A stretch of DNA of 64,000 bases. It comes from Gloeobacter violaceus PCC 7421 (lineage in GTDB: Bacteria > Cyanobacteriota > Cyanobacteriia > Gloeobacterales > Gloeobacteraceae). Made by a program: the position numbers and the translations under genes. The stretch spans positions 868,001 to 932,000 of the forward strand of contig NC_005125.1 of assembly GCF_000011385.1 (NCBI RefSeq), read 5' to 3'. The first letter of the stretch is position 1, and each line of letters begins with the position of its first letter. Below, in pieces: positions 2,979 to 46,066 of this stretch. Below the pieces are notes generated by a model. It did not search any database, was not told the origin of the DNA, and saw only the letters and a list, made by a program, of their open reading frames with translations.

Positions 2979-3026
2979 GCATGGTTCAGTCGACTCCGGC
3001 TTTCAGGTTAACCGCTCAAGAAGCCC

Positions 3027-31437: not shown

Positions 31438-31441
31438 CCAC

Positions 31442-31927
31442 TTGATCGCACTGTATCCGGGGAGCTTTGATCCCCTGACCTACGGCCATCTGGATATTAT
31501 CGAGCGCGCCGCCCGTCTGTTCGACCGGGTGGTCGTCGCCGTACTGCGCAACCCGGCCAAGGTGCCGCTGTTTACCGTCGAGGAGCGCCTCAGCCAGATC
31601 CAAAAGGCCGTACGCCACCTCGACAATGTCGAAGTCGAAGCGTTCCATGGGCTCACGGTCACCGTCGCCCGCCGCCTTGATGCCCGGGTACTGCTGCGCG
31701 GGCTGCGGGCGGTCTCCGATTTTGAGGCCGAACTGCAAATGGCCCAGACCAACCGCACCCTGGCGACCGAAATCGAGACGCTGTTTTTGAGCACTTCGAC
31801 CGAGCACAGCTTCTTGAGCAGTTCGCTGGTCAAGAACATCGCCGCGGCCGGCGGCCCGGTGTCGCACATGGTGCCTGAGCACATTGAGAAAGAACTGCGG
31901 ACGCGGTTCGCCGGAGCGCCTCTATGA
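31442..31927 (+). CDS. coaD: Phosphopantetheine adenylyltransferase
   Basis: CoaD makes dephospho-CoA from phosphopantetheine and ATP. The 161-residue protein has the nucleotidyltransferase motif [16 protein letters not shown] (T/HxGH) and [18 protein letters not shown]. It uses a TTG start 4 bases after nadB, the only start that keeps the family N-terminus. It overlaps the next gene by 4 bases. Confidence 0.96.
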
Positions 31928-32397
31928 ACATCCAGAAGGAACTCGACCGCTTGGAGGACATGATTCTTTCCTCGCCGCGCATCCCCTTTACCGGCCGCAC
32001 CGTGATCGACGAGAATGCCATCCTCGACATCCTCGACCGCATCCGCATGAATTTACCCAAGGTGATCGAAGAAGCCGAGCGCGTCGTCGATCAAAGCGAA
32101 GCACTCGTCGCCCAGGCCCAACAGGAGGCCGAGCGCATCTTGACCCTGGCCGAACAACGCGCCGAGCGGGTGGTGGAAGAATCGGAACTGTTGCGGGTGG
32201 CCCGTTCGCGCGCCGAAGACCTCAAAGCTGCCGCCCAAAAAGAAGCCGACCAGATCCAGCAGACCGCCCTTCAGCAGGCCCAGGCGGTCCAAAGCGGCGC
32301 CGATCAATACGCCGAGCGCGTTTTAGGCAAACTCGAAGGCGACCTCGGCCAGCTGTTGCAAATTGTCAAAAACGGCCGCCAGAGCCTGCACGGCTAA
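31924..32397 (+). CDS. DivIVA-like coiled-coil protein
   Basis: This 157-residue protein is almost wholly helical. A short N-terminal segment ([27 protein letters not shown]) is followed by heptad-rich Glu/Gln/Ala sequence (residues 50-150). Cyanobacterial homologues are usually labelled DivIVA-domain or ATP-synthase-B-like, but no function is proven. It overlaps coaD by 4 bases, so they are co-translated. Confidence 0.75.
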
Positions 32398-32907
32398 TCA
32401 CATCAACCAGCAGAGCAAGGCTTCGACGGCATAGAAAAGGGCGAGGGCAGCCAGGGTGCGCCGCAGCCGCCGCATCACCGGGGCTACCTGGTACTCAACC
32501 ACCAACCGGTCTTTTGCCAGATCCTCGGCGGGCTTGGTCCAGAAACTGCCGTCGTACCAACCGGTTTCTTCGTAGTGCACGCTCGCCGAGAGCAAGCGCG
32601 TATGCACATAGGACCAGCCCAGGTAGAGCCGCAGCAGCACCAGCCCCAGGATGATCCCAGCACCGCCCGCACCGCCCACCAGAAACTGCCATGGCATGCG
32701 CCCCGGCGGGAAACTCCAGGCGGCCACCGGCCCGCTCACAATCCAGGCCACTGACCAGACCGCCAGGATTGTGCCCAGGTAAACCCGCGGCTCGACGGTC
32801 GCCCAACGAAAAAAGTACGAACTGCGTAGCTGCTGATACTCGTTGAACGGGCGCTGTTCGGGAGGTATCGCTACGGTGGGAGTCCGGCGCTCCATGCCTG
32901 AGTACAA
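32398..32907 (-). CDS. CGLD27/DUF1230-family membrane protein
   Basis: This 169-residue protein matches the family conserved in the green lineage and cyanobacteria: IPPEQRPFNEYQQLRSSYFFRW at the N-terminus, two central membrane helices, then LYLGWSYVHTRLLSASVHYEETGWYDG. A further hydrophobic helix lies at the C-terminus. It is thought to act in photosynthetic or iron-related physiology, not proven. The start may be the ATG at 32895 (MERRTPT). Confidence 0.85.
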   Translation of the reverse strand: MYSGMERRTPTVAIPPEQRPFNEYQQLRSSYFFRWATVEPRVYLGTILAVWSVAWIVSGPVAAWSFPPGRMPWQFLVGGAGGAGIILGLVLLRLYLGWSYVHTRLLSASVHYEETGWYDGSFWTKPAEDLAKDRLVVEYQVAPVMRRLRRTLAALALFYAVEALLCWLM

Positions 32908-32958
32908 ACTCCTATCCTGGAGAGGGGCTCCTCTCCAGTCTATCGGTCACCACTACCT

Positions 32959-33957
32959 ATGTTGCATTTCTTAATGCCTCCCTGGCCCACGGCGATCGTG
33001 GGCACGGGTTACGCAGCCCGCCAGCGGGCCATCACCCTCTCGGGCGATCCGCGCATCAAGCTCGTCGGTTTTATCGGCCACAGCCCGGCTGCAAGCGAAA
33101 AGTTTATGGCCGAATTCGGCATCGGGACGGGTGACGAAACGCTGCTTGCCGGGGCGCACTTGGTCTTTGTCTGCACTGTCAACCGCGACCACGGCCTCTG
33201 GGTGCGCCGCGCCCTGGAGCAGGGTGCCCACGTCGTAGTCGAGTATCCGCTGGCGCTGGATGCTGCCGAGGGGGCGGCGCTGATCGCCCTGGCACGCGAG
33301 CGCCGCCTGCTGTTGCATGTCGAACATATCGAGCTGATGAGCGGCATCCACCAGGCATTGGCCGGGCAGATGGCGGCGGTGGGTCCGGTGCATCTGGCCC
33401 GCTACAGCAATGTGGTCGCCCGCCTGCCCGAGCCGGGGCGCTGGACCTTTTCGGTGGATCTGTTCGGTTTTCCGCTGGTGGGGGCACTCTCGCGCCTCAG
33501 CCGCCTGGTGGACCTGGTAGGGCCGGTCGCCTCGGTCTTCTGCCAGAACCGCTACTTCGATTTGACCCCCGACGGCTACTACCGCGGCTGTTCGTGCGTG
33601 GCGCAACTTCAATTTGAGTGCGGAGCGGTCGGACAGCTCGCCTACGCCAAAGGAGCGGGCTGCTACCAATCCGAGACCCGCCTCGAACTGGCAGGCAGCC
33701 GGGGGGCGGTCATCCACGACGGCGAAAAGCTGCTGGTGCTGGATGGCCAGGATACCCGCATCCTGGAGCCCGGCAGCCGCCGGGGGCTTTTCGAGCGTGA
33801 CACGCGCATGGTGCTCGATGTCCTCCAAGGCAGGGGCGAACTGTACACCACCCCCGAGCGCAGCCTGCACATTCTGGCGACAGCCGCCGCCTGCGAGCGC
33901 TCCGCCGCCCTCGGCCGCAGCGAAGCGGTGGAAGTTCCGGCACTCCCCATAGGATAG
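32959..33957 (+). CDS. bvdR: Biliverdin reductase
   Basis: This protein of 332 residues is a Gfo/Idh/MocA-fold oxidoreductase with the NAD(P) motif AIVGTGYAARQRA. The BvdR-specific blocks are VVEYPLAL, LLHVEHIELMSGIHQAL, ARYSNVV, FGFPLVGALSRLSRLVDL and GSRRGLFERDT, and their order and wording closely follow the Synechocystis enzyme as I remember it. BvdR reduces biliverdin to bilirubin and has been linked to phycobilisome formation. It lies 23 bases upstream of cysS on the same strand. Confidence 0.88.
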   Translation: MLHFLMPPWPTAIVGTGYAARQRAITLSGDPRIKLVGFIGHSPAASEKFMAEFGIGTGDETLLAGAHLVFVCTVNRDHGLWVRRALEQGAHVVVEYPLALDAAEGAALIALARERRLLLHVEHIELMSGIHQALAGQMAAVGPVHLARYSNVVARLPEPGRWTFSVDLFGFPLVGALSRLSRLVDLVGPVASVFCQNRYFDLTPDGYYRGCSCVAQLQFECGAVGQLAYAKGAGCYQSETRLELAGSRGAVIHDGEKLLVLDGQDTRILEPGSRRGLFERDTRMVLDVLQGRGELYTTPERSLHILATAAACERSAALGRSEAVEVPALPIG

Positions 33958-33980
33958 AAACAGCACGCCCAGGGTGGTCC

Positions 33981-35429
33981 ATGGCCTTGCAGATCTACAA
34001 CACGCTCACGCGCCGCAAAGAACCGTTCGTCCCCCTCGAAGCGGGCACAGTCAAAATGTACGTCTGCGGCGTCACCGTCTACGATTACTGTCACCTGGGC
34101 CACGGGCGCACCTACGTCGTCTGGGACACCGTTCGCCGCTACCTGATTTCGCGCGGCTACGCGGTCACGTATGTTCAGAATTTTACGGACGTCGACGACA
34201 AGATCCTGCGCCGCGCCCAGCAGGAAGGCACCACGATGGAGGCGGTTGCCGAAAAGTACATCGCCGCCTACTTCGAGGACATGGACAGACTCAACGTCCT
34301 GCGGGCGGACAGCTACCCGCGCGCCACCCAGACGATGCCCGAGATCGGCGCATTGATCGATCGGCTCACCTCGATCGGGTACGCCTATCCGGCGGCGGGG
34401 GATGTCTACTACAGCGTCCGGCGCTTTGCCGAGTACGGCAAGCTCTCGGGCAAGCGCCTGGCCGAACTGGAGGCGGGAGCAAGCGAGCGGCTGCAGGACG
34501 AAGAACTGGCGCGCAAGAAAGACCCGTTCGACTTCGCCCTCTGGAAAGGAGCCAAACCGGGAGAGCCCGCCTGGGATTCACCCTGGGGAGCGGGTCGGCC
34601 GGGCTGGCACATCGAGTGCTCGGCGATGGTGAGAAAAAGTCTGGGAGAAACCATCGACATCCACGCCGGGGGCGAGGATTTGCAATTTCCCCACCACGAA
34701 AACGAAATTGCCCAGTCGGAGGCCGTGACGGGTAAGCCGCTCGCGCGCTACTGGATGCACAACGCTTTTCTCAACGTCGTGAACTCCTCCGGGGCCGAGG
34801 AGAAGATGTCTAAGTCCCTGGGCAACTTCAAGACGCTGCGGGATCTGTTCGAAGTTTTCCCACCGATGGCCCTGCGGTTATTTTTGCTCAAGACCTCCTA
34901 CCGCAACCCGATCGCCTTTTCGGCCGAAGCTTTCAAGGGTTCCGAGCAAAACTGGCGAGAGCTGGAAGAGGTGCTGCAACTGGCGGGCTGGATTGCTGGG
35001 CAGGGCCGGCCTGCCACCGACGACATCGAGTCCGAACCCTGGGTGCGGCGCTTCAACGAGGCGATGGACGACGATTTTAATACTGCCGCCGCCCTCGCCG
35101 AGGTAATCGCCCTGGGTAAGCAACTGGCCGGCCGCTACCACGCCGCCATCCACGGCACGCCCCTCGCGGACCCGGCGCGATTTGCCCGGGAGTGGCGCAC
35201 ATTTGCTCTGCTGTGCGACATCCTGGGCCTGAAGGCCGCTGAGCCCGAGGCGCGCCAATCGGCCCTTCCCGAGGCTGAGATCGAAGCGCAAATCGCCCTG
35301 CGCCGTCAGGCCCGCGAAGAGCGCAACTGGGCGGAGGCCGACCGCATCCGCAAGCAACTACTGGATCAGGGCATCGTGCTTATCGACCACAAAGAAAAAC
35401 CGACCACCTGGCGCCACGCCGATCCGTGA
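33981..35429 (+). CDS. cysS: Cysteinyl-tRNA synthetase
   Basis: This 482-residue class I synthetase has the zinc cysteine and HIGH-like motif [18 protein letters not shown] near residue 29, [11 protein letters not shown], the HxxE zinc part [12 protein letters not shown] and the KMSKS loop [10 protein letters not shown] near 273. Length and domain order are those of the family. Confidence 0.97.
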
Positions 35430-35433
35430 GCGT

Positions 35434-35763
35434 TCACGGCCTGAGGGTGAGAAGCCAGCTAATCAACAGCAACAGCGCAAACAGCAGCGGCACGCTCCAG
35501 AAGCGCTTACTCACGGGCGTCTGGTACATCGGCGGCGGCTCGGCCGGGGCGCGCTCGTCGCGGTAAAGCGTGCAGCGCCGCGCCTCCGGAAAATCGGGCA
35601 GATTGCAATCCTCCCGGTAGGTGCAGTGCCCGCAGAGCACTTCGCCTTTGGGGGCCACCGCGATGCGGATACCCGGACGGTCGCCCGCCAGAAAACCCAG
35701 CCGGCATTCGGGGCAATGCAGTTCCTTCTCGCTCAGCAAGGTGCCGCAGCGGGGGCAGCGCAT
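35434..35763 (-). CDS. Zinc-ribbon protein with C-terminal membrane anchor
   Basis: This 109-residue protein begins with a zinc ribbon (CPRC near residue 3 and CPEC near 17) and has a second cysteine set (CGHCTYREDC near 44, then a cysteine in RRCTLY). A single membrane helix lies near the C-terminus (FWSVPLLFALLLLISWLLTL). The tail-anchored layout suggests a membrane-associated assembly or binding factor. No named family was recognised. It lies 6 bases downstream of the DUF4346-like gene and is probably co-transcribed with it. Confidence 0.7.
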   Translation of the reverse strand: MRCPRCGTLLSEKELHCPECRLGFLAGDRPGIRIAVAPKGEVLCGHCTYREDCNLPDFPEARRCTLYRDERAPAEPPPMYQTPVSKRFWSVPLLFALLLLISWLLTLRP

Positions 35764-35769
35764 CGGTCT

Positions 35770-36192
35770 TCAGTCCTGCACGTACTCGGTACCGTGGATG
35801 AGGGCGTACTCGGCGCGTTGCAATTCGCGTCCCAGGTAGGCGGCGTGGTTGAACATGCCCACCGGCGGCGGGGCGTCCGATTCGAACAGCTTGACGCACA
35901 TCTCCTTGGCCGTGCGCGCTGTGTAAGTGGACAGCAGCGGCGTGCTCACCGGGCCGCGCGCCGGCAGCGGCTTACCGGTCTGGGGGTCAATCGCCAGACC
36001 GCGAGCGTCGACGGTGAGGCCGAAGTGCCGGGCGACAAGCAGACCCTCCTGACGGTCGACGGCGATTAAAAAATACCCGGCCGCGTCGAGATCGATATGG
36101 CGACTGGACAGATTGCGGTCCACCTCTTCGATGCGCGATTGCCAGGGGGAAATTTGCTGAACCATGAAGATCTGCTGAAGAATTGTTTCCAT
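35770..36192 (-). CDS. DUF4346-like protein
   Basis: This soluble protein of 140 residues carries DLDAAGYFLIAVDRQEGLLVARHF, IDPQTGKPLPARGP, YTARTAKEMCVKL and the closing HAAYLGRELQRAEYALIHGTEYVQD, a pattern I associate with DUF4346. Relatives occur throughout cyanobacteria and in some archaeal methyltransferase proteins. The function is unknown. I start at the ATG at 36192. The gene is divergent from rubA. Confidence 0.75.
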   Translation of the reverse strand: METILQQIFMVQQISPWQSRIEEVDRNLSSRHIDLDAAGYFLIAVDRQEGLLVARHFGLTVDARGLAIDPQTGKPLPARGPVSTPLLSTYTARTAKEMCVKLFESDAPPPVGMFNHAAYLGRELQRAEYALIHGTEYVQD

Positions 36193-36314
36193 CCTAAATA
36201 CGGCGATAGGGAGCGTCAAATCGTGGCACAAAGCGGAGGGAGGGGGTATCCTCTATAGTGAAGAGAAATTAAGTTTTTCTTCATATTTAGCCCGTCGCTT
36301 TGCTGCCAACCGCC

Positions 36315-36650
36315 ATGACGACCCAGATTACCGACCCAACGCAACTCGACCGCTACGAGTGCCGTACCTGCGGCTACATCTACGAGCCGACCAAGGGTGA
36401 CGCTACGGTACCGGCGGGCACACCCTTCGAGGAACTCGCCGCCGACTGGCGCTGTCCGATTTGCTCCTCGGCCACCAGCCGCTTCAAAAGCATCGGCCCG
36501 AAGGTGGGAACGGTGGCCGGGTTCGAGGAGAACGCCGGCTACGGCTGGGGTGTCAATGTCCTCAACGCCCAGACCAAGAACGTCTTGATCTTTGGCGCTT
36601 TGTTCTTGGGTTTTCTGTTTTTCATGAGCATCTATTTTTTGGGCAACTGA
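36315..36650 (+). CDS. rubA: Membrane-anchored rubredoxin RubA
   Basis: This protein of 111 residues has a rubredoxin domain with the two iron-binding cysteine pairs ([10 protein letters not shown] and CPICSS), a linker and a C-terminal membrane helix ([20 protein letters not shown]). RubA is needed for photosystem assembly in cyanobacteria and chloroplasts. The position directly before ycf48 and psbEFLJ is the usual one. The ATG at 36315 fits the family better than the one at 36300. Confidence 0.95.
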
Positions 36651-36651
36651 C

Positions 36652-37623
36652 ATGGGCAAATGGAGCGGGCTGGGGCTGGGGTTGCTGCTGCTGGTGCTCG
36701 CCGGTTGCGGGGCGCCTCCCCTCGAGCGCGATGAATGGAAAGTGATCCCGACGGGTCTTTCCGATAAGGCCGATTTGCTGGATATCGCTTTTGTCGACGA
36801 CAAGAACGGCTGGGCGGTAGGCAGCCGCTCGACGCTGCTGCGCACCGCCGACGGTGGTGAGAGCTGGACCGCCGTCCCCGTCAAGCTCGATTCGGATTCG
36901 CGCTTTTTGTCGGTGAGCTTCGACGGCAAAAACGGCTGGATAGGCGGCGAACCGAAGCGGCTGTTGCGCACCGTCAACGGTGGCGCAAGCTGGACGTCGA
37001 TCACCCTCGATCAGCGCCTGCCGGGTAGCCCCCTCAAAGTTTATGCCCTTGGTGCCGACACCGCCGAAGTCGTGCTCAATTCGGGCCTGGTGATCAAGAC
37101 CGTCAACGGCGGCAAGAACTGGCAGGTGGTTACCCCGGCCTCAGCGGGCGGCATCCGCAGCGCCGAGCGCGTCGCCGACGGTTCCTACTGGGTGGTCTCC
37201 ACTCGGGGCGGCTCCTATTTGCAATGGAAGCCCGGCGATCCGCAGTGGACCAACTACGAACGCACCAGTTCCCGGCGCATCCAGGCGATGGGCTTTAGCA
37301 GCGGCAAAGCCGGCTGGATGATCAACCAGGGCGGCGAGATGCAATTTACCGCCAACCAGGGCGAAACCTGGACGCCGGGCCGCTCGGTGATCCTCAACGG
37401 CCTCAGTCTGCTCGACGCCGACTACACCGCCGCCGACAAAAAAATCTGGGCGGCGGGCGGCGGCGGCACGCTCATCGTCAGCGCCGACGACGGCCAGAAC
37501 TGGAAGGCTGAGGAGGTTCCCGGCATCAAAGGCAGCCTGCTTAACGTCGAATTTATCGGCAACAAAGGCTTCGTGTTGGGCCAGAACGGCGTGTTGCTCA
37601 AATACCGGGGGGCCGCAGATTAA
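36652..37623 (+). CDS. ycf48: Photosystem II assembly factor Ycf48 (HCF136)
   Basis: This 323-residue seven-bladed propeller lipoprotein has a signal peptide ending in the lipobox LAGC (Cys near 19). Repeats such as [23 protein letters not shown] and the basic patch near [12 protein letters not shown] are typical. It binds early D1 and helps build the PSII reaction centre on the lumenal side. It begins 1 base after the rubA stop. Confidence 0.96.
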
Positions 37624-37627
37624 ATTC

Positions 37628-37656
37628 TTGTTGTCTCGTGTAATGTTCCGTATCAT
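37628..37656 (+). promoter_or_regulatory. Candidate sigma70-type promoter of psbEFLJ
   Basis: TTGTTG (37628-37633) and TATCAT (37651-37656) are 17 bases apart, about 40 bases before psbE. A GGGAGG ribosome binding site precedes the psbE ATG. It would allow psbEFLJ to be expressed apart from rubA-ycf48. Confidence 0.6.
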
Positions 37657-37697
37657 TGTGTAAAATTGCAGTCAAGAGTCCTGGGAGGCCTTATCTT

Positions 37698-37952
37698 ATG
37701 TCGAGCCGCAGCACTGGCGAGCGCCCTTTCACCGATATCATCACCAGTACGCGCTACTGGATCATTCACATTCCCGCTATAACCATTTTGTTTGCGAGTG
37801 GTTTTCTATTCGTTTACACGGGGCTCGCCTACGACGTGTTCGGCACTCCCCGCCCCGACGAATACTACAACTCCGACAACACCAAAAAGCCGCTGGTGAA
37901 CAAGCGCTTCGAGGCGAAGCAGCAGCTGGACGAAGCCACCAAGAACAAATAA
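37698..37952 (+). CDS. psbE: Cytochrome b559 alpha subunit
   Basis: This 84-residue PSII core subunit begins [21 protein letters not shown]. The heme-ligating histidine lies in [21 protein letters not shown], followed by the lumenal [10 protein letters not shown]. It pairs with PsbF to hold the b559 heme. The ATG at 37698 is supported by the ribosome binding site and family N-terminus. Confidence 0.98.
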
Positions 37953-37971
37953 TTTTGCAGGAAGCACTGTC

Positions 37972-38127
37972 ATGACCACTTCTTCGAACCGTCCCACCCC
38001 CGGTGGCCCGACCCAGCCCGTCTCCTACCCGGTCTTCACCGTCCGCTGGCTGGCGGTCCACGCCCTGACCGTGCCCACGATCTTCTTCCTGGGCGCTCTG
38101 GCCGCGATGCAGTTTATCCAGCGCTAA
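37972..38127 (+). CDS. psbF: Cytochrome b559 beta subunit
   Basis: This 51-residue single-span protein has the histidine ligand in [15 protein letters not shown] and ends AAMQFIQR, as in all PsbF proteins. The N-terminal leader (about 16 residues rich in Pro, Thr and Gly) is longer than in many homologues. It follows psbE by 19 bases. Confidence 0.97.
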
Positions 38128-38142
38128 GACGGAGAAAATCTC

Positions 38143-38256
38143 GTGTCCAAAGATCCGAAAAATCCTGGCGTCGAGCTGAACCGCACTTCCCTGTACATGG
38201 GCCTGGTGCTGGTGCTCGTGATCATCTTGCTGTTCTCCAACTACTTCATCAACTAA
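38143..38256 (+). CDS. psbL: Photosystem II protein L
   Basis: This 37-residue single-span protein has the family pattern [20 protein letters not shown] and the end LLFSNYFIN. It stabilises the Q-A site and the PSII dimer. The start is GTG with a GGAG ribosome binding site 10 bases upstream. Confidence 0.97.
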
Positions 38257-38269
38257 TCGGAGCGCGACG

Positions 38270-38380
38270 ATGCCGCAAAGAATTCCCCTGTGGATGGTGG
38301 GTGTGATGGCCGGTCTGGGCGTGATTGCGATCCTGGGGCTGTTCTTCTACGGTTCCTACGCCGGTCTCGGCGCCGGTTAG
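38270..38380 (+). CDS. psbJ: Photosystem II protein J
   Basis: This 36-residue single-span protein has [20 protein letters not shown] and the closing [11 protein letters not shown]. It is the last gene of the psbEFLJ operon. PsbJ influences electron flow from Q-A and PSII assembly. Confidence 0.97.
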
Positions 38381-38454
38381 ATCCCGCGTTTCCCATCGAT
38401 TCGCGCAAGCGCGCAGTCTGTCGGCACCTGCCGCGGCTGGGCGTTTTCCCGTGT

Positions 38455-38473
38455 TTAACAGATTTCTAACATT
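38455..38473 (+). promoter_or_regulatory. Direct-repeat box upstream of the OmpR-type regulator
   Basis: TTAACAGATTTCTAACAT holds two TAACA half-sites 11 bases apart, the geometry of OmpR/PhoB-family binding sites. It lies 65 bases before the response regulator start. A copy matching in 17 of 18 bases lies upstream of the DUF305 gene (42546-42563), and a diverged copy lies upstream of the gene starting at 43807. Confidence 0.72.
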
Positions 38474-38537
38474 CTTTCGGTAGCCTGGGTCTCAAGGCAG
38501 AGCCTCCCCGCCTGTGCCGCCGTCTCCGGGTGTAACC

Positions 38538-39230
38538 ATGCCGAACGCCGCTATCCTCGTCGTCGAAGACGACCCGCTCATTCTTGAGACCATTCGCCGC
38601 TACCTCGAACACGCAGGGCACCGTTGCCATTGCGCCGCCGACGGTTGGGAGGCCGACCGGCTCGCCCTGCGCCACCGCCCGGATCTGGTGGTGCTCGACT
38701 GGATGCTGCCGGGCGTGGACGGTCTGGCGCTGTGCGAGCGCTGGCGCAAAGGGGAGTACTTCGCGCCTGTGTTGATGCTCACGGCGCGCACCGAGGAGGA
38801 CCACCGCGTGCGCGCTCTGGCGGGCGGGGCAGACGACTACCTGGACAAACCTTTCTCTGCAAAGGAACTGGTGGCCCGGGTGCAGGCCCTGCTGCGCCGC
38901 GCCTACGCCAGCGGTTACCGCGACTGCAGCCCCAAAAACGGCCTGCTGGTCGATCGCAACACCCGTCAGGTGCAGCTGCACGGTCGCCCGATCGACCTGC
39001 GGGCCCGGGAATTCGACCTGCTCGCCCAGTTGGCCGATCACCCCGGCCGGGTGTACTCGCGCGACGAACTGCTCGAGCGGGTCTGGGGCTACGACTTCGA
39101 AGGCGGTCACCGGACGATCGACGTGCACGTGCGCAAGCTCCGCGAGAAGCTCGAGCCGGATCCCACCCGCCCGGTCTATGTGCTCACCGTCTGGGGTGTG
39201 GGTTACAAATTCGCGGGACCGCCGCGGTGA
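38538..39230 (+). CDS. OmpR/PhoB-type response regulator
   Basis: This 230-residue regulator has a receiver domain with VVEDDPLIL, the phospho-acceptor in VVLDWMLPGVDG near residue 53 and DKPFSAKEL near 105. A winged helix follows at about 130-228 (DLRAREFDLLAQLADHPGRVYSRDELLERVWG; HVRKLREKLEPDP). I start at the ATG at 38538 just before motif I. The stop overlaps the kinase GTG (GTGA). It resembles cyanobacterial regulators of metal or redox responses, but the ligand is unknown. Confidence 0.95.
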   Translation: MPNAAILVVEDDPLILETIRRYLEHAGHRCHCAADGWEADRLALRHRPDLVVLDWMLPGVDGLALCERWRKGEYFAPVLMLTARTEEDHRVRALAGGADDYLDKPFSAKELVARVQALLRRAYASGYRDCSPKNGLLVDRNTRQVQLHGRPIDLRAREFDLLAQLADHPGRVYSRDELLERVWGYDFEGGHRTIDVHVRKLREKLEPDPTRPVYVLTVWGVGYKFAGPPR

Positions 39231-40669
39231 GCTTCCACCCAAGGGCCCTGGTGCCCCGCACGCTCTGGGGCCGCCTGACCCTCGCCTTCGTGGGCCTGAC
39301 GGCCGCCTGCCTGTGGGGAATCGGCCTGGTGCTCGGCGACGCCCTCAACAATTTTTTTGTTCAAGACGCCCAGGCGCGCCTCGACCGCCAGGCTCGCGGG
39401 CTCGCGGAGTTGGCGCCCTCCGATTGGCGGGCGGCGACTCGCCTGAGCGCCCGTCAAAATCAACTGCAGGTGCTCGTCTTCGACGCGCGGGAGAACACGG
39501 TGGCGAGCGCCCAGGGGCTCGCCGGGGTGCACCAGGTGGTGATCCCCCGCGGCATCGTCCGCAAGACCCTCACAGGCCAGGGCCAGCGGGGCCGCCTCTG
39601 GGTCGAGGGGGAGACCAAGTATCCCTGGTGGCTCTACAGCACCGCACCCGTGCGCACCAGCGGCGCGATCGGCGCGGCGGTCTACGTGGCGATGCCCCTG
39701 CTGCGGCCCCGCCGTTTTGCCCAGCAGGTGACCGGTCTTGCGATGCTGTGCGTGGGCGGGGCGATGGTGCTGGCGGTACTGGCCGGTTTGGGCCTCGCCC
39801 GCACGATCGCGGGTCCTTTGCAGCGGTTGACCCGGCAGGCCAGACAGCTGGAAGCGGGGGACTACCAGGCCCGCTGCGGCCTGGACGGGGACGATGAAAT
39901 CGCCCGCCTGGGCTTGACGCTCGACGCGATGGCCGGACGACTGGAGGAGACGATCGCGAGCCTCAAAGCCCAGGAAGCTTCCCGCCGGGAGTTGCTGGCC
40001 AACATTTCCCACGATCTGCGCACGCCGTTGACGGCAATGCGCCTCAGCTTAGAGGCGGTGCTCGACGGGGTCGTCAACGGCGAGCAGGTGGGCGGCTACC
40101 TGGAGAAGATGCGGCGCGAAGCGATTTACCTCGGGCAACTGGTTGATCAATTGATGCTGTTGGCCCGCTCCGACAGCGGCCAACTCGAAGTCAGCCTGCG
40201 GGAGGTCCCGATCGCCGCACTGCTCGGCGAAGCGCTCGAGCGGATCGAGCCGCAGGCCATCGCCCGGGGCGTCTTCCTGGATGGGCGCTGGTCCGGGCAC
40301 CTGCCGGCCGTCAGGTTGGACGCGCATCTGAGCGCCCAGGTGCTCGCCAACCTGCTCGACAACGCCGTCAAGTACACCCCTGAAGGCGGTTCGGTGATCC
40401 TCTCGGCGCGCGACACCGGCGGCGGGGCGGTGCAGATCACCGTCGAAGACACCGGATCCGGCATGGACGCGCAGGTGCTCAAACGGGCGACCGAACGCTT
40501 CTGGCGGGCGGATCCGGCTCGCTCGGGAGGCGGGTTCGGCCTGGGGCTCGCCATCGCCGAGCGCCTGTGCCGCCTGCAGGGGGTCGGCCTCGAAATCGCC
40601 AGCGCCCCGGGCCGGGGAACGGCGGTGATCCTGCGCCTGCCCGTGCGGCGCCCCGACTCGGCGGCGTAG
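39227..40669 (+). CDS. Membrane sensor histidine kinase (HAMP, HisKA, HATPase)
   Basis: This 480-residue kinase begins at the GTG overlapping the regulator stop. It has membrane helices at about residues 17-39 and 165-190 with a sensing loop of about 125 residues between them. A HAMP domain and a dimerisation motif LLANISHDLRTPLTAMRL (His near residue 260) follow, then NLLDNAVKYTPEGG, DTGSGM and GGFGLGLAIAERLC. The periplasmic loop has no His/Met cluster that would prove metal sensing. It phosphorylates the regulator encoded before it. Confidence 0.95.
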   Translation: MSFHPRALVPRTLWGRLTLAFVGLTAACLWGIGLVLGDALNNFFVQDAQARLDRQARGLAELAPSDWRAATRLSARQNQLQVLVFDARENTVASAQGLAGVHQVVIPRGIVRKTLTGQGQRGRLWVEGETKYPWWLYSTAPVRTSGAIGAAVYVAMPLLRPRRFAQQVTGLAMLCVGGAMVLAVLAGLGLARTIAGPLQRLTRQARQLEAGDYQARCGLDGDDEIARLGLTLDAMAGRLEETIASLKAQEASRRELLANISHDLRTPLTAMRLSLEAVLDGVVNGEQVGGYLEKMRREAIYLGQLVDQLMLLARSDSGQLEVSLREVPIAALLGEALERIEPQAIARGVFLDGRWSGHLPAVRLDAHLSAQVLANLLDNAVKYTPEGGSVILSARDTGGGAVQITVEDTGSGMDAQVLKRATERFWRADPARSGGGFGLGLAIAERLCRLQGVGLEIASAPGRGTAVILRLPVRRPDSAA

Positions 40670-40681
40670 CCGGAGCACAAC

Positions 40682-42151
40682 TTAGGGCAGACCGGGCGGG
40701 GGCAACTGCACCTGCACCGGTTTGGCCGCCTCGCCGCCTTCGCTCGGCACGATCACCAGGTAGCGGCGCGGCAGGGGGTCGTCGCCCTCGCCCAGGAGCG
40801 TCTTGAGCGGGCCGAGGGCGGCAACGATCGCCGCCCCGGCCGGGTTGGTCTTGAAGAGCGCTAGCGGTTGGAGCCGTCCGAAAGGTTCGCTGGGTCGCTC
40901 GGCGAGGGCGAGCCGGTAGGTGCGGCCGGGTTCCAGGCCGCTCACGGCCGCCTGCAGGTGGTCGAGCAGCCCCTGGGGGTTGACGGCGACGGTGGTCGCG
41001 GGCCGACGGGCCGACGAGCCGGGCGGTCCCAGGGCGAGCAGCACCCCGGGAACGGGCGTTAGGGTTTCGAGGGCGGCGCCTTCCCCGGGGTCCCCGGCCG
41101 CCCCCGGCGCGTAGACGATGGCCTGCGGCGATTGCCCGCCCGGGATGGTAGCTGTGACCCGGTTGGCGAGGGTATCGACCACGGCAATGGCGTTGGCGTG
41201 CTCCAGCCCGACGTACAGGCGCGTGCCGTCGGCGGAGGGCCACAACCCGTGGGGCAAAGCCCCCACCGGGATGGTGGCGACCGGCCGGGGAGTGTCGTCG
41301 GTGGTGAAGACTTTGACGGTGTTTTCGCCGCCGACGGTCACGTAGGCAAATTGCCCCCTGGCGTTGCGCACGAAGTTGACGTGGTTGGTGATCGGCCCGG
41401 TGTCGAGGACCGCCAGGGTGGAAAAAGGCGGCTCGGCGCTCAGGATCTGGGTTTTACCGGTGTCTTTGAGCGTCAGCCAGACCTGGCGGCCGTCGGGGGT
41501 GGCGGCCAGGTTGGGGCAGAAGGGCGAAAGCTGCCGGACGATCGCGACGGTCTGGTAGGTGCGCGGGTCGATCGCGGCGAGTTCGGGGGTAAAACTCGAA
41601 CAGACGAACGCGTAGCGGCCGTCGGGGCGGAAAACGGCCATGCCCGGGCCATCCGCCACCACGATGCGCCGCTTTTCCCGGTAGGTCCGCGCGTCGAGCA
41701 CCGCCACGTAATCCTCGCCGCGCACCGTCACCCACAGTTCGCCGCCGTCGGGGGTAAAAAAGGCTTCGTGGGGAGCCCGCCCCAAGTAGGCGGTGTGCCG
41801 GACCCGGTGGGTGCCGGTGTCGATAAATGAGACAGAATTGGAGCCGATCGAGACGACGGCGAGGGTGCGGCGATCGGGCGAGAGCGCCAGACCATGCACG
41901 AGCAACTGGCCGCGGTACAGCGGGCTCAAGTTCTGAGGAACGGTGTCCCCCAACCGGATGACGCCCAGCAGGCGCTGGGACCCGGGCTCGTAAACCGAAA
42001 CCGTGTTGGAAGTCTGATCGGCGCTGTAGAGTCGGTCGCGGGGGCCGATGGGAACGTCCGGCGCCGAGGCGGGGCCTGGCACCTGTCCTGCGAGAGCGGG
42101 AGTGGCCAGGACCGCCAGCAGCAAAGCGCACGTTATGGCTCGTCTCGCCAT
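40682..42151 (-). CDS. Exported YVTN/YncE-type beta-propeller protein
   Basis: This protein of 489 residues has a signal peptide (ITCALLLAVLATPALA, cut near residue 22). A run of YVTN-type propeller blades follows (NTVSVYEPGSQRLLGVIRLG, GSNSVSFIDTGTHRVRHTAYL, NTVKVFTTDDTPRPVATI, NAIAVVDTLANRVTATIPGG). The C-terminal 150 residues form a separate domain. I start at the ATG at 42151, 17 bases behind the DUF305 gene, and the pair looks like one operon. Such propellers often act in metal or surface functions; no ligand is visible. Confidence 0.87.
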   Translation of the reverse strand: MARRAITCALLLAVLATPALAGQVPGPASAPDVPIGPRDRLYSADQTSNTVSVYEPGSQRLLGVIRLGDTVPQNLSPLYRGQLLVHGLALSPDRRTLAVVSIGSNSVSFIDTGTHRVRHTAYLGRAPHEAFFTPDGGELWVTVRGEDYVAVLDARTYREKRRIVVADGPGMAVFRPDGRYAFVCSSFTPELAAIDPRTYQTVAIVRQLSPFCPNLAATPDGRQVWLTLKDTGKTQILSAEPPFSTLAVLDTGPITNHVNFVRNARGQFAYVTVGGENTVKVFTTDDTPRPVATIPVGALPHGLWPSADGTRLYVGLEHANAIAVVDTLANRVTATIPGGQSPQAIVYAPGAAGDPGEGAALETLTPVPGVLLALGPPGSSARRPATTVAVNPQGLLDHLQAAVSGLEPGRTYRLALAERPSEPFGRLQPLALFKTNPAGAAIVAALGPLKTLLGEGDDPLPRRYLVIVPSEGGEAAKPVQVQLPPPGLP

Positions 42152-42167
42152 AAAAGTCTCCTCGTAG

Positions 42168-42497
42168 TTAGCGCTGTCTGGCAAGCCACAGGCGCATCAG
42201 TTCGATTTCGGCTTGCTGCTCGATAACGATTTCCTGAGCAAGCCGGCGCAGGGCCGGGTCTTTGCCGTGGAGCAGTTGCGCGCGCGCCATGTCGATGGCC
42301 CCCCGGTGGTGCAACAGCATCAATCCGGCAAAATCGCGGTCGGTGTCGCCGCCGGCCGGCAGGGCGGCCATCGCCCGGTGCATGTCCTCCATCGCCTGCA
42401 GGAAGGGGGTCTCGGAGTGGGAGCCACCCGGAGAGGCAAACGCACCCAGCCCGGCAAGCCAGAGGCCCGCCGCCAGAATCGACCAGGGTCTGTGCAT
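42168..42497 (-). CDS. Exported DUF305 protein
   Basis: This 109-residue protein has a signal peptide (about residues 1-22) and a four-helix DUF305 domain. The diagnostic motif is DFAGLMLLHHRGAIDMARAQL (His-His, Asp, Met), with a further EQQAEIELMRLWL. DUF305 proteins are rich in His and Met and are often linked to copper handling. It is followed 17 bases later by the propeller gene and preceded by a regulator box. Confidence 0.88.
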   Translation of the reverse strand: MHRPWSILAAGLWLAGLGAFASPGGSHSETPFLQAMEDMHRAMAALPAGGDTDRDFAGLMLLHHRGAIDMARAQLLHGKDPALRRLAQEIVIEQQAEIELMRLWLARQR

Positions 42498-42545
42498 CGG
42501 CGGTTTGGCCTCCTTGCCTGTCGTGGTCTTCAGTCTGTCGGGCGG

Positions 42546-42563
42546 ATGTTAGCAATCTGTTAA
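42546..42563 (-). promoter_or_regulatory. Direct-repeat box upstream of DUF305-propeller genes
   Basis: Read on the minus strand this is TTAACAGATTGCTAACAT, 17 of 18 bases identical to the box at 38455-38472. It lies 49 bases before the DUF305 start and shows the same 11-base spacing of TAACA half-sites. It is the best candidate target of the OmpR-type regulator outside its own promoter. Confidence 0.72.
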
Positions 42564-42571
42564 TTTGGGGC

Positions 42572-42617
42572 GCCGACTTTTGCGGGGGCGCAGAGCACGA
42601 CCCCCGCAAAAGTCGGC
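42572..42617. terminator. Long perfect hairpin after the duplicated-domain gene
   Basis: A perfect 17-bp inverted repeat (GCCGACTTTTGCGGGGG and complement) has a 12-base loop and lies a few bases after the stop of the gene at 42623-43807. There is no T run behind it, so it may be a Rho-independent terminator of weak type or an mRNA-stabilising hairpin. Confidence 0.6.
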
Positions 42618-42622
42618 TCGGC

Positions 42623-43807
42623 TCAAGGTGTCGCCGTCAGATCCTGGCCGTTGGTCACCGGGCTGATGCCCAGGATCTGGCGGGTGCTGCCCGTGCGGCC
42701 GGTGGCGTCGGTGACGCTGGCGATGACGGTGAGCGTGGTCTTGCCGGCCGGCAATTCCAGCGAGCCGCCCACCACCCAGTCGGCGGTGGCGCGCACCAAC
42801 CCTTCGGTCGTCAGTTCGCTGCCCGCGATATTGAACAGCGGCGCGAGGTTGGCCCCGGCCGGGATCAAATTGCCGTTCGGCTGGCGCAAAGGCGCATCGA
42901 AGGTCAGCACCAACCCGGGGTAGAAGCGGTTCGGTCCGCCCGCCGGATTGACCGCCGGGTCCGGAACCTGCGACCCATCAAGGATCACCCCTTCGGTCAG
43001 GCCGATGCCGTGGCGGGAGCGGTCCACCGCGCTCACCTGGATGAAAAACAGCGATCCGTCCGGGGCCACCGGCGTACCGGTCGGTCCCGGGGAGACCCCC
43101 GTAGGCACGCGCGGGGCGATCATCGTCACCTCCGGTCCGTCCGGATCGTCCTGGCCGTCGCCTGCTACCGCTTCCGGCTGGGGGGTGAGGGCCTGTCCGG
43201 AGGTGGCGCCGTTTTTGGCCACCCGGTAGCCGACGCGATCGACACCGACCCGGCCGCTCTGGTCGACCACCGCGACAGTGACAGCAAAGCGATCGACCCC
43301 CGGCGGCAGCGACTCGAGCACGTGCCAGCCGGCCCAAACGGTGATCCCGGAGCCGGGGGTGTCGTCGGTGCCCGCCACGTTGAACAGGGCGGCCAGGTTG
43401 GTGCCCTTCGGGATGATCCCGCCGTCCGGTTTGACAAGGTCGGTATCGAAGAACACCAGCAGTCCCGGAAAACTCTGGTTGGTCAGGCCCAACCGGGAGG
43501 TGTCGCGGATGTCGGTGGCCTCGCGGACCGCAAGCGGAACCCGGTCGCGGGTGACCACCTCGACGTTGAGGGCAAAGCCGGTTCCATTCTGGCTGCCCGC
43601 ACCGACGACACCTTCACCGGGGGCGATCAGCGACTCCGGTACAGGCGAGACGATGCGGACGATGGGACCGAAGTCTTCTTTGGAAAGATTCTGGGCGCCA
43701 CTTTTTTGGCTGTTTCCGAACGGCGCCGATTGGGCGAAGGCCGGGGCGGCCTGGGTGGCCAGGCCCAGCAGCATCAGCGCTGTGCAAATCGATTTGATGG
43801 GCGGCAT
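42623..43807 (-). CDS. Exported protein with an internal domain duplication
   Basis: This 394-residue protein has a signal peptide (ICTALMLLGLATQAAPAFAQ). Two copies of one beta-rich domain of about 160 residues follow, at about 45-205 and 225-390. The core phrases match: FPGLLVFFDTDL...GGIIPKGTNLAALFNVAG and YPGLVLTFDAPL...GNLIPAGANLAPLFNIAG. I recognise no named family. It probably lies in the periplasm or on the surface and belongs to the set facing the two-component system. Confidence 0.8.
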   Translation of the reverse strand: MPPIKSICTALMLLGLATQAAPAFAQSAPFGNSQKSGAQNLSKEDFGPIVRIVSPVPESLIAPGEGVVGAGSQNGTGFALNVEVVTRDRVPLAVREATDIRDTSRLGLTNQSFPGLLVFFDTDLVKPDGGIIPKGTNLAALFNVAGTDDTPGSGITVWAGWHVLESLPPGVDRFAVTVAVVDQSGRVGVDRVGYRVAKNGATSGQALTPQPEAVAGDGQDDPDGPEVTMIAPRVPTGVSPGPTGTPVAPDGSLFFIQVSAVDRSRHGIGLTEGVILDGSQVPDPAVNPAGGPNRFYPGLVLTFDAPLRQPNGNLIPAGANLAPLFNIAGSELTTEGLVRATADWVVGGSLELPAGKTTLTVIASVTDATGRTGSTRQILGISPVTNGQDLTATP

Positions 43808-43850
43808 GGAAAGTCTTGCCTCGTAAGGTCAATTCCATGCTTCGGCACAG

Positions 43851-43867
43851 TTGTTATCGATCTGTAT
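43851..43867 (-). promoter_or_regulatory. Diverged direct-repeat box upstream of the duplicated-domain gene
   Basis: On the minus strand ATACAGATCGATAACAA keeps ACAGAT and TAACA with the half-sites 11 bases apart, as in the boxes at 38455 and 42546. It lies about 44 bases before the start codon. Similarity is weaker than for the other two. Confidence 0.5.
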
Positions 43868-43881
43868 GCCGTTCGAACGGC
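43868..43881. promoter_or_regulatory. Perfect 14-base palindrome
   Basis: GCCGTTCGAACGGC is a perfect palindrome next to the diverged regulator box and 61 bases before the start of the duplicated-domain gene. It may be an operator. Its position also lies downstream of the CHRD gene. Confidence 0.4.
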
Positions 43882-43884
43882 GCA

Positions 43885-43902
43885 GGGTGCCGGATGGCAC
43901 CC
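43885..43902 (-). terminator. Hairpin behind the CHRD gene
   Basis: GGGTGCC and GGCACCC pair across a 4-base loop about 65 bases after the CHRD stop. There is no clear T run. It may separate the CHRD transcript from the next gene. Confidence 0.4.
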
Positions 43903-43964
43903 CTTCCCATCGCAGTGCCGGACCTGGCTTTTATTTGCCCGGAGGTGCAGGTGCGGCCGTGGCT

Positions 43965-44426
43965 TTAGAAGCGCCGGTAGAACAGTTGGCCGCGCAAAGC
44001 GCCATCCGGAAACTCTTCTGTGTGGAAGTTGACGTAAAACTCCAGCGGCTGGTTAAGTATTTGCTCGGCAACCGCCGGATCGGCCGGCACGCATTTGTTG
44101 ATGCTGCCCGGATCGGCACTGTCGGGTGGAACCAGATCGACAACCACAGAGCCGTTCACCCCGGCCTTGGCGTTGTGGATATGAAAGACGGTCGGTTTGC
44201 CGAGGTTGTCGACCCTGAGCGAGTAGCACGCCTGCCCCTTTGCCGGGTCGATGCGGACGTGGATGAAGCCGATGCCGTCTTGATCGCCAGCGTTGGCCTG
44301 ACCGGTGCTGCTCACTTCGTTGCCGCCCAAGAGGATGGCCGACAGCGTGGGAGTCTCGGCAAAGGCGGGGTGGGCGCCCACGGTAAGGGCAGCCAGCGCG
44401 CCGAGAGTAACCATAACCTTGCGCAT
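43965..44426 (-). CDS. Exported CHRD-domain protein
   Basis: This 153-residue protein has a signal peptide (VTLGALAALTVGAHPAFAE). A CHRD (chordin-like) domain follows with LLGGNEVSSTGQANAGDQDGIG, the histidine-containing FHIHNAKAGVNGSVVVDL and the closing FYVNFHTEEFPDGALRGQL. CHRD proteins in bacteria are periplasmic or surface proteins of unknown role, often in metal-related neighbourhoods. It heads the group of exported proteins facing the two-component system. Confidence 0.9.
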   Translation of the reverse strand: MRKVMVTLGALAALTVGAHPAFAETPTLSAILLGGNEVSSTGQANAGDQDGIGFIHVRIDPAKGQACYSLRVDNLGKPTVFHIHNAKAGVNGSVVVDLVPPDSADPGSINKCVPADPAVAEQILNQPLEFYVNFHTEEFPDGALRGQLFYRRF

Positions 44427-44699
44427 AGTGCGGTTCTCCGAAAGTAAGTGGGATCAAAAATCGCAAGCCAGAAGCCTCTGGGGAACGCTCCACAAGTCGG
44501 CGGAACGGAAATCGTCCGCGCGGCGGGCACTTGACGCAACTCGGGTGGAATAGTGACGGCGCCTCTGGCGGGCAGCAGACCGTAGGTCGAACAATCGGGC
44601 GTTCAGTATGCTTCGCTCAAACGTTTCAAAAAGCACAGTTTGCCGCTGCCCGTTTCAGGATACTCCCCCTCCTGTGGTGGGGTGCGTCTGCTGGCATAC

Positions 44700-45827
44700 T
44701 CAGTCGACGGAGACTTTCGGGAGTGCCTCTTTCAAAAGCTTGCAGATCTTGTGAACATAACCCGGCATCGGGAATTTAAGCCAGCACTCGGGGGGCTGCC
44801 AGGTGTGTTCACGGCAGTCAAAAACCTTCGGCAGCGCAGCCGGAGCGGCAATCCACTGTGCCCGCAGTACTTGGGCTGTCAGATGGCGGTGGGTAAATTC
44901 GTGCTCCACCTGCCCCAGCCGCTCAAGCGATTCCAGGCGATTGCCAAAGGCCACTCGGACGGTTTCTTCCGGCTCGCCGCCGCCAACTGATTCGACAAAC
45001 GGAAATTCCCAGAGCCCAGCGAGCAATCCCCGCTCCGGTCGGCGGACAAGTAAGAATTTTCCCTGGCACTCGATCGCGACGCTGACCCCTGCGATCTCGG
45101 AGCGCACCGCGCGGGCGGGGCGAACCGGAAAGTGCGTGGGATCTCCCGAGCGGCGCCCCAGACAATCGACTTGCCACGGACAGAGCAGACACAGAGGAGA
45201 TCTTGCTGTACAAACTGTCGCTCCTAGATCCATCAACGCCTGATTGAAGTTGTGGGGAGCTTGCGGGTCTACCAGCCGCTGTGAGATCTCCCAAAGCTTC
45301 GCTTCTGCCCGCGCAGGAGGATCGCCCACCGCGAACAGGCGCCCCAGTACCCTGCGGGCGTTGGCATCGAGGATTGCTTCACACCGGCCGAAGGCACTGC
45401 TTGCGATTGCACCTGCCGTCGAGCGGCCGATACCCGGCAGCGCTTGTTGCAACTGCTGGGCGGTCTCGGGAAAAACTCCGCCGTGCTCTTTGACAATCAC
45501 CTGCGCGGCTTTATGGAGGTTGCGCGCCCGGGTGTAGTAGCCCAGGCCCTCCCAGAGCTTAAGCACCGCCTCCAGCTCGGCGGCGGCAAGAGCCGCGACG
45601 GTCGGCAGAGCCGCAAGCCACCTTTGGTAGTAGGGCAGGACCGTTTTCACCTGGGTCTGCTGAAGCATGATCTCCGAAATCCAGATGGCATAAGGATCAC
45701 GGGTACGGCGCCAGGGCAAATCTCGACCCATGCGGCCGTACCATTCCAACAGTTGGGCCCGCAGCCGGACGACCTGTTCGGGCTCGGAGCAGTTGTTGAG
45801 CGATGGTTTTGCACTGCTGTATCCCAC
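44700..45827 (-). CDS. mutY: A/G-specific adenine glycosylase
   Basis: MutY removes adenine mispaired with 8-oxoguanine. The 375-residue protein has the helix-hairpin-helix and catalytic region (ISEIMLQQTQVKTVLPYYQRW, ALPGIGRSTAGAI). It also has the iron-sulfur motif CTARSPLCLLCPWQVDC (Cys spacing 6-2-5) and a C-terminal NUDIX-like recognition domain (LLVRRPERGLLAGLWEFP). It is divergent from crtI. Confidence 0.96.
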   Translation of the reverse strand: MGYSSAKPSLNNCSEPEQVVRLRAQLLEWYGRMGRDLPWRRTRDPYAIWISEIMLQQTQVKTVLPYYQRWLAALPTVAALAAAELEAVLKLWEGLGYYTRARNLHKAAQVIVKEHGGVFPETAQQLQQALPGIGRSTAGAIASSAFGRCEAILDANARRVLGRLFAVGDPPARAEAKLWEISQRLVDPQAPHNFNQALMDLGATVCTARSPLCLLCPWQVDCLGRRSGDPTHFPVRPARAVRSEIAGVSVAIECQGKFLLVRRPERGLLAGLWEFPFVESVGGGEPEETVRVAFGNRLESLERLGQVEHEFTHRHLTAQVLRAQWIAAPAALPKVFDCREHTWQPPECWLKFPMPGYVHKICKLLKEALPKVSVD

Positions 45828-46066
45828 AACTTGCCCGTCCCTTCAAAGACCTTTGACAGGCTAGCATCGTCCCCCCGCGGCCAATAAAACAAACGCTGCA
45901 GCACAACAGAGGCGAAACTTCCGCACTTTCAGCTCTGCATCCACAAATCATTGCCGCTCAGGCCCTGCCAAGGATGTTCGAGACATGGGCAGCCTGGAAT
46001 CGGCACTGTGAGCCTGGGGCAGTGTTACGATCTGTAATCAAGCGTCGGACACGGAAGGGAGCAGCT

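Follow-up and report, generated by a model that had tools for sequence, protein, structure and literature searches.

A block of six genes in Gloeobacter violaceus PCC 7421 may form a self-contained extracytoplasmic stress module that is run by its own OmpR-type two-component system. The block occupies positions 38428-44852 of the window, that is, of the whole 64,000-nucleotide stretch of the chromosome that was analysed (NC_005125.1, positions 868,001 to 932,000), and it encodes a response regulator and a sensor histidine kinase that face four exported proteins: a YVTN/YncE-type propeller, a DUF305 protein, a protein with a duplicated domain, and a CHRD-domain protein. In the reading that we favor, to which we give a probability of roughly 0.45, the DUF305 protein would metallate the propeller and the propeller would carry out redox chemistry, most likely on reactive sulfur. 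Co-inheritance of the six genes and regulation by the block's own two-component system are both well supported by comparison with relatives; the metal chemistry and the signal are put forward as hypotheses.

All six genes were judged real, and the coordinates given to them by an earlier, sequence-only reading of this DNA proved correct. Domains were assigned with Pfam and NCBIfam, and bit scores were compared with the curated or gathering cut-offs. On the plus strand, the gene for an OmpR/PhoB-family response regulator (38538-39230; Response_reg 98 bits, Trans_reg_C 101 bits) is followed by that for the histidine kinase (39227-40669; Pfam HAMP, HisKA and HATPase), whose GTG start overlaps the regulator stop. 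A receiver with a winged-helix output and a HAMP kinase place the pair among OmpR/PhoB two-component systems, and the regulator scores under the cut-offs of all NCBIfam models listed. The minus-strand genes converge on this pair, with 12 bp between the kinase gene and that for the exported propeller with its C-terminal extension (40682-42151; NCBIfam beta_rpt_yvtn, 104 bits; Pfam Lactonase/YNCE-type). The gene for the exported DUF305 protein, a CopM-family metallochaperone by its family match (42168-42497; Pfam DUF305, 65 bits, cut-off 27), lies 16 bp ahead of the propeller gene, and beyond it are those for the exported protein with two copies of a beta-rich uncharacterised domain of about 170 residues (42623-43807) and for the exported CHRD protein (43965-44426; PF07452, 83 bits against a cut-off of 24.1). 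Every minus-strand gene from 44426 to 40682 had been credited with a signal peptide, and rule-based inspection of the four N-termini agrees: each has a short N-region, a hydrophobic core and an A-x-A-type site.

The six genes behave as one unit, present or absent together at one site. A close relative (G005) matches the window by blastn at 93% identity over 29886-38427 and at 89% over 44853-45937, with about 322 unrelated bases between these segments (L133); the piece that it lacks, from the psbEFLJ side to the mutY side, is exactly the six genes. Because psbE adjoins mutY in the more distant G006 as well (L135), the site without the block looks like the ancestral state, and the lineage of G. 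violaceus seems to have acquired the block there or had it moved in. Genome G004, whose DNA is 94% identical, keeps the regulator-kinase pair at 98% and then jumps from the 3' end of the propeller gene into the middle of the duplicated-domain gene (L097, 11440-11934), a deletion that removes the propeller, the DUF305 gene and most of the duplicated-domain gene. An assembly fault may be responsible, G004 being a draft genome; the deletion adjoins a transposase-like open reading frame (IS30-type by eye) at the contig end. In G003, no DUF305, duplicated-domain, CHRD or kinase-sensor gene of this set was found.

The sequence-only reading had called for a search for the gene set in other Gloeobacterales, and the set does recur in two other Gloeobacteraceae genera. 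All six genes stand together in G007, at 64-72% identity and in the order duplicated-domain, CHRD, DUF305 and propeller, then the convergent kinase and regulator; the G007 contig is the same sequence as a contig of the Gloeobacterales metagenome-assembled genome ES-bin-313 (L003). Five are found in G006, where the regulator, kinase, DUF305 and propeller genes run in the same direction on one contig and the remainder of the propeller gene faces the duplicated-domain gene on a second. Within the order, the sensor domain of the kinase was found only in this genome (G000), G004, G006 and G007, and it was found in no plasmid searched. The G006 and G007 matches came from a separate search of the order, not from the sample of 386 cyanobacterial genomes, among which the propeller occurs in only this genome and G342 and the duplicated-domain protein in this genome only. 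The co-inheritance of the genes and their recurrence in the family, together with the conserved operator-like box described below, speak for the proposed periplasmic or cell-surface response module, and dispose of the concern that the genes might co-occur nowhere else.

Does the two-component system control the exported genes that it faces? An 11-bp-period direct repeat, TTAACAGATTNCTAACA, lies ahead of the response regulator and DUF305 genes. Its perfect form in the window, TTAACA-N5-CTAACA, is confined to 38455-38471 on the plus strand, before the regulator gene, and 42547-42563 on the minus strand, before the DUF305-propeller pair; with two mismatches allowed, 0.88 chance matches would be expected in the window. 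A repeat period of 11 bp is as expected for an OmpR/PhoB-family regulator, and the response regulator encoded here would be the protein that binds these repeats. A degenerate box, CATACAGATCGATAACA, precedes the duplicated-domain gene (43852-43868, minus strand; five mismatches, 3/200 shuffles); the site to which it aligns in the G007 promoter of that gene reads AAAACAGATTGTTAACA. The box is thus present at three of the locus's four promoters, one of them weakly; the CHRD promoter lacks it (162/200 shuffles), and the CHRD gene was accordingly rejected as a member of the box regulon here. The candidate regulator box of the earlier reading is thus perfect at two promoters, degenerate at a third and lacking at the fourth.

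For a blind test in relatives, the pattern was taken from the two sites of this genome only, and the relatives' promoters were scored against 200 dinucleotide shuffles. In G007 the box was recovered at the DUF305 promoter (two mismatches, 0/200 shuffles), the regulator promoter (three mismatches, 0/200) and the duplicated-domain promoter (three mismatches, 1/200). The G006 duplicated-domain promoter also carries it (two mismatches, 0/200), the G006 DUF305 promoter carries it weakly (four mismatches, 3/200), and the G004 regulator promoter has a box with a single mismatch (0/200). No box stands before the DUF305-propeller pair of G342 (198/200), near which no two-component gene was found. Box 1 is thus conserved in G004 and G007, and box 2 in G007 and weakly in G006. 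A relaxed pattern, scanned by pattern only, has three exact matches over the 4.66-Mb genome, two of them at this locus; since the relaxed pattern was devised with the relatives' sites already known, the blind shuffle scan is the cleaner test. The third exact match (G000:C1:1042794-1042810; L196, about 2995-3011) lies some 80 bp before a gene for a cellulose-synthase-like glycosyltransferase. The relaxed box has a one-mismatch match in G005 too, a genome without this kinase, and on these grounds the third match was not counted.

Perhaps the two halves of the block are simply chance neighbors, with the two-component system not in control of the exported genes. The convergent arrangement would allow this, as would a strong G+C-rich hairpin that separates transcription units (42572-42617, minus strand; 20-bp stem, -40.1 kcal/mol, z -6.6, 0/200 shuffles). 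This hairpin, between the duplicated-domain and DUF305 genes, is probably a terminator, and as a candidate it would end the duplicated-domain transcript just ahead of box 2, splitting the minus strand into separate transcripts. In addition, G342 has the DUF305-propeller pair with no two-component gene found nearby (L154). Considering, however, that the same box stands before the regulator and the target genes across genera, that the set is present or absent as one block, and that it is conserved in G006 and G007, we regard chance adjacency as very improbable.

Adjacent DUF305 and YVTN/YncE propeller genes, the core of the block, are also found in Pseudomonadota, Deinococcota and Bacteroidota. 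About 80 plasmid records were found to encode the propeller, at roughly 45-60% identity along most of the protein. In 20 annotated plasmid neighborhoods, chosen for taxonomic spread and tallied by eye from the annotations (L137-L139, L141-L152, L211-L215), 17 have an annotated DUF305 gene next to the propeller gene or close to it, and the "hypothetical protein" beside the propeller of L212 is a DUF305 protein too (49%). A sigma factor of the extracytoplasmic function (ECF) type and its anti-sigma factor are close by in 10 of the 20, and a two-component system in three (one Pantoea and two Hymenobacter, the latter with LytTR). Sulfite oxidase or molybdopterin oxidoreductase, TDT transporter or sulfate/sulfite exporter genes are annotated in 11 or 12 of the 20. 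NCBIfam confirmed SorT near the Methylibium pair (651, cut-off 570), and SorA-like enzymes under the NCBIfam cut-off lie near pairs in Sphingomonas and Deinococcus. Channels of the fluoride/chloride type (CrcB or CLC family) also stand repeatedly within a few kb of plasmid pairs (L146, L150, L212, L214, L215).

A less selected set consists of nine propeller loci in six of 39 genomes, genomes that were picked only for having DUF305; the six are non-cyanobacterial. DUF305 lies beside the propeller at all nine loci, ECF and anti-sigma genes accompany six and sulfite genes one, and none of these groupings appeared in eleven control stretches drawn from three of those six genomes. On these counts the association of DUF305 with the propeller is robust, as is that of the pair with ECF factors; the association with sulfite genes is real but partial. 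The window propeller is 54-61% identical to propellers of ECF-linked pairs, it is a full-length YVTN propeller with an adjacent DUF305 gene, and that DUF305 protein falls in the common clade (support 100/98); the place of the ECF sigma/anti-sigma genes is taken here by the two-component system. The same core is wired to ECF and anti-sigma factors in most other bacteria and to a LytTR or OmpR two-component system in some; here the sensor is a two-component system.

The sole direct expression evidence that we found for such a pair comes from Starkeya novella, where Snov_0990 (DUF305) lies 12 bp before Snov_0991 (YVTN propeller), beside rpoE1 and its anti-sigma gene, Snov_0992/0993 (Tan et al. 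2019, PMC6527743). Both the duf305 promoter and that of the sulfite dehydrogenase gene sorA are activated by RpoE1, and expression of the propeller gene is high on tetrathionate (PMC6527743). The likeness is one of described gene anatomy: both loci have the adjacent pair (12 bp there, 16 bp here) and a dedicated regulator of extracytoplasmic signals alongside. They differ in that an ECF sigma/anti-sigma pair there is replaced here by an OmpR-type two-component system, and in that no CHRD or duplicated-domain protein is reported there, which leaves the Gloeobacter set with two extra exported proteins. The module had been called undescribed; this holds for the six-gene set as a whole, but not for its DUF305-propeller core, already published as part of the RpoE1 regulon, which is linked to tetrathionate and to the oxidation of sulfite (PMC6527743).

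Larger parts of the set recur on plasmids of Deinococcus sp. KNUC1210 (L137) and Hymenobacter (L148, L211), where a duplicated-domain protein 50-59% identical to that of the window stands with the propeller and DUF305. CHRD is also in the Deinococcus cluster, and a kinase with a LytTR regulator in the Hymenobacter clusters. They differ from the block in having, in Deinococcus, ECF and anti-sigma factors with sulfur genes and, in Hymenobacter, LytTR rather than OmpR-type regulators; no description of the KNUC1210 or Hymenobacter clusters was found in the literature searched. Taken together, the neighbors of the pair elsewhere point to sulfur-oxyanion stress at least as much as to copper.

Copper resistance is nonetheless the main rival reading. 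It would make the block a tolerance module like copMRS, in which the kinase senses periplasmic copper and the DUF305 protein and the other His/Met proteins bind the metal and keep it out of the cytoplasm. The DUF305 protein passes the NCBIfam CopM model (NF049983; 93.2 bits, cut-off 90), its relatives in the PDB are CopM structures (7vw1, 5fej), and it has the HH motif and the Met/His ligand set (M36, M39, M43, M60, H63, H64 and M70) that is conserved in the propeller-linked clade, as anticipated in the suggestion that its histidines are suited to metals. The Synechocystis CopM protein is encoded with CopRS and binds copper (PMC4335983), again a CopM-family DUF305 protein with a two-component system in a cyanobacterium. 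In Myxococcus xanthus, the copper-induced, CorSR-controlled curA operon holds a DUF305 lipoprotein gene and a PQQ-type (PQQ_2) propeller lipoprotein gene, likewise under a two-component system (PMC3707914), and plastocyanin-like genes adjoin the set in Deinococcus.

These parallels are incomplete. CopM carries two DUF305 domains and acts together with CopBAC efflux, whereas here there is one domain, a propeller partner, a convergent gene order and no efflux gene in the block; the curA system has a sigma-54-type regulator, a multicopper oxidase, the CopA ATPase and a cupredoxin, and its propeller is PQQ_2, not YVTN. The block (38428-44852) encodes no P-type ATPase, RND, multicopper oxidase or CopZ protein, efflux genes elsewhere in the genome not having been searched for. 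The kinase scores well under the cut-off of the CopS-type (Cus/Cop) heavy-metal sensor model TIGR01386 (157 bits against 292.55), and no His, Cys or Met is conserved in the sensor domain across four orthologs.

The DUF305 tree points the same way. In a tree of 109 cores, from which Synechocystis CopM itself was left out, the propeller-linked proteins form one branch (support 100/98; 25 of its 27 rows are propeller-linked) that includes the window protein and its G006 and G007 counterparts; the alignment is short (94 columns), and therefore only this main split is trustworthy. Other Gloeobacterales DUF305 proteins (L098, L099, L100) group far off with Phormidesmis, and those of L098 and L100 stand in metal-efflux clusters, so that in both G007 and G002 the efflux cluster has its own DUF305 of another clade; a CusA/CzcA-type RND protein is over the cut-off in L098, and a copper ATPase is on the same G007 contig. 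On the tree, the window protein was rejected as an ortholog of these efflux-linked DUF305 proteins, and the separate branches and efflux context together suggest that it belongs to the CopM family in sequence but probably does not share the role of an efflux-linked CopM. The near-obligate adjacency to the propeller and the conserved Met/His residues lead us to suppose that it donates copper to the propeller. The suggestion of copper stress keeps what the ligand set and the curA operon (PMC3707914) lend it, and loses ground to the lack of efflux genes with the set, the character of the sensor and the DUF305 clade; on balance we consider a copper-tolerance module rather unlikely. As a separate observation, the metal clusters (L098 566-8990 and L195 6456-9098 in G007; L100 8324-17001 in G002) contain BlaI/BlaR-like repressor/protease open reading frames (by eye), CusA/CzcA-type RND, the other-clade DUF305 and a copper ATPase, with a cupredoxin-like open reading frame as well in G007.

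What might the propeller do? Its only Pfam matches are the Lactonase, YNCE, THOC3 and Cytochrom_D1 models. The AlphaFold2 model (predicted local distance difference test score 72 overall, about 83-95 over most blades) supports a propeller fold, and its best Foldseek match, also the closest solved propeller by sequence, is the archaeal YVTN surface-layer protein 1l0q. Foldseek was set aside as a guide to function, for it returned only generic propellers, besides low-identity matches to nitrous oxide reductase and hydrazine synthase. The residues H86, H128, H257, H301, R125, E129, R144, N256, K229, W140 and W225 are invariant in 28 of 28 homologs. H86, H128 and H301 occupy the equivalent repeat position in three different blades, H257 probably the same position in a fourth, and the remaining equivalent places are G170, P213 and Q343; if the ring is regular, the histidines would lie on neighboring blades and face the axis. 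At the aligned places 1l0q lacks them.

A general response to oxidative or envelope damage, with no dedicated metal or sulfur chemistry, would see in the propeller and the two beta-rich proteins scaffolds or adhesins and in DUF305 a metal sink. The kinship with a surface-layer protein fits this idea, as do the variation of sensors between lineages and the duplicated-domain protein, which has no known enzyme relative and of which one ortholog barely matches a bacterial Ig-like model. However, invariant His, Arg, Glu and Lys residues in all 28 propellers, with three to four His at one repeat position, and a near-obligate DUF305 partner argue for chemistry, and we judge such a general response clearly unlikely. 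For the thiol oxidase SELENBP1, histidines in the propeller cavity have been proposed as ligands of its copper (PMC10362175). SELENBP1 and bacterial methanethiol oxidase are seven-bladed propellers with cavity histidines that bind copper and act on thiols, a comparison of how such proteins work only, since they belong to another sequence family and the window propeller has no such Pfam match.

In the favored reading, then, the periplasmic domain of the kinase would detect envelope stress, and the phosphorylated regulator would bind the repeat and activate its own promoter and the exported genes. The DUF305 protein would be a chaperone that binds copper(I) through Met and His and delivers it to the propeller, which would hold the metal by axis-facing histidines on neighboring blades and carry out a redox reaction, the likeliest substrate being some reactive form of sulfur (sulfite, tetrathionate or a thiol); the CHRD and duplicated-domain proteins would be accessory exported partners. 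Several results weigh against this scheme. The G006 regulator promoter has no significant box (46/200 shuffles), nor does the CHRD promoter here, and no CHRD gene was found in G006. The propeller model yields no usable ligand information, and its histidines could bind an anion or substrate rather than copper. Sulfite-gene neighbors, common on plasmids that were picked for variety and not at random, are rare at the sampled genome loci, and the block itself has no sulfite dehydrogenase, sulfur transporter or rhodanese gene. Sulfite-oxidase-like genes (PF00174) occur in all nine Gloeobacterales genomes, block or no block, and a correlation of the block with sulfite oxidase inside the order was accordingly discarded. 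Reactive sulfur is favored over copper as the signal or stress only moderately.

A broader proposal, which we hold to be doubtful, is that DUF305 and a His-bearing YVTN propeller make up an uncharacterised but widespread system outside the cytoplasm, a copper enzyme together with a dedicated chaperone, carried on plasmids and islands in at least four phyla, fitted with interchangeable sensors (ECF/anti-sigma, LytTR, OmpR) and removing reactive sulfur, with the Gloeobacter block as a fuller two-component version that has two extra exported partners. The block offers an example of an effector set retained while the sensor is exchanged. It also brings propeller-linked DUF305, CHRD and a secreted two-repeat family that has no name into one genetic setting, for which a regulator, an operator and a metal site can be proposed. 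If these proposals are right, "CopM" annotations beside propellers would mark an enzyme-maturation chaperone, not copper resistance.

Of the two extra exported proteins, the duplicated-domain protein does have the internal duplication noticed in the sequence-only reading: its halves share 33% identity (E 3e-19), and their local alignment scores 193, whereas shuffled sequences reached at most 59. The protein has no match in Pfam or NCBIfam, its profile has no PDB sequence relative, and its predicted structure is too poor to be of use (predicted local distance difference test score 46). Relatives are found in Gloeobacteraceae, Deinococcus, Methylibium and Hymenobacter; they accompany the pair in Deinococcus and Hymenobacter, and the Methylibium relative has a DUF305 and a more diverged propeller in its vicinity. 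CHRD accompanies the propeller on two Deinococcus plasmids, and the ortholog in the G007 cluster is 69% identical. No open paper linking the CHRD domain with DUF305, or YncE-family proteins with sulfite oxidase, was found in the literature search. The Deinococcus CHRD protein that adjoins the pair (L137, 10718-11161) also gives a weak match to the Cu/Zn superoxide dismutase model (E 4e-4), a hint of a possible common fold of CHRD and SodC.

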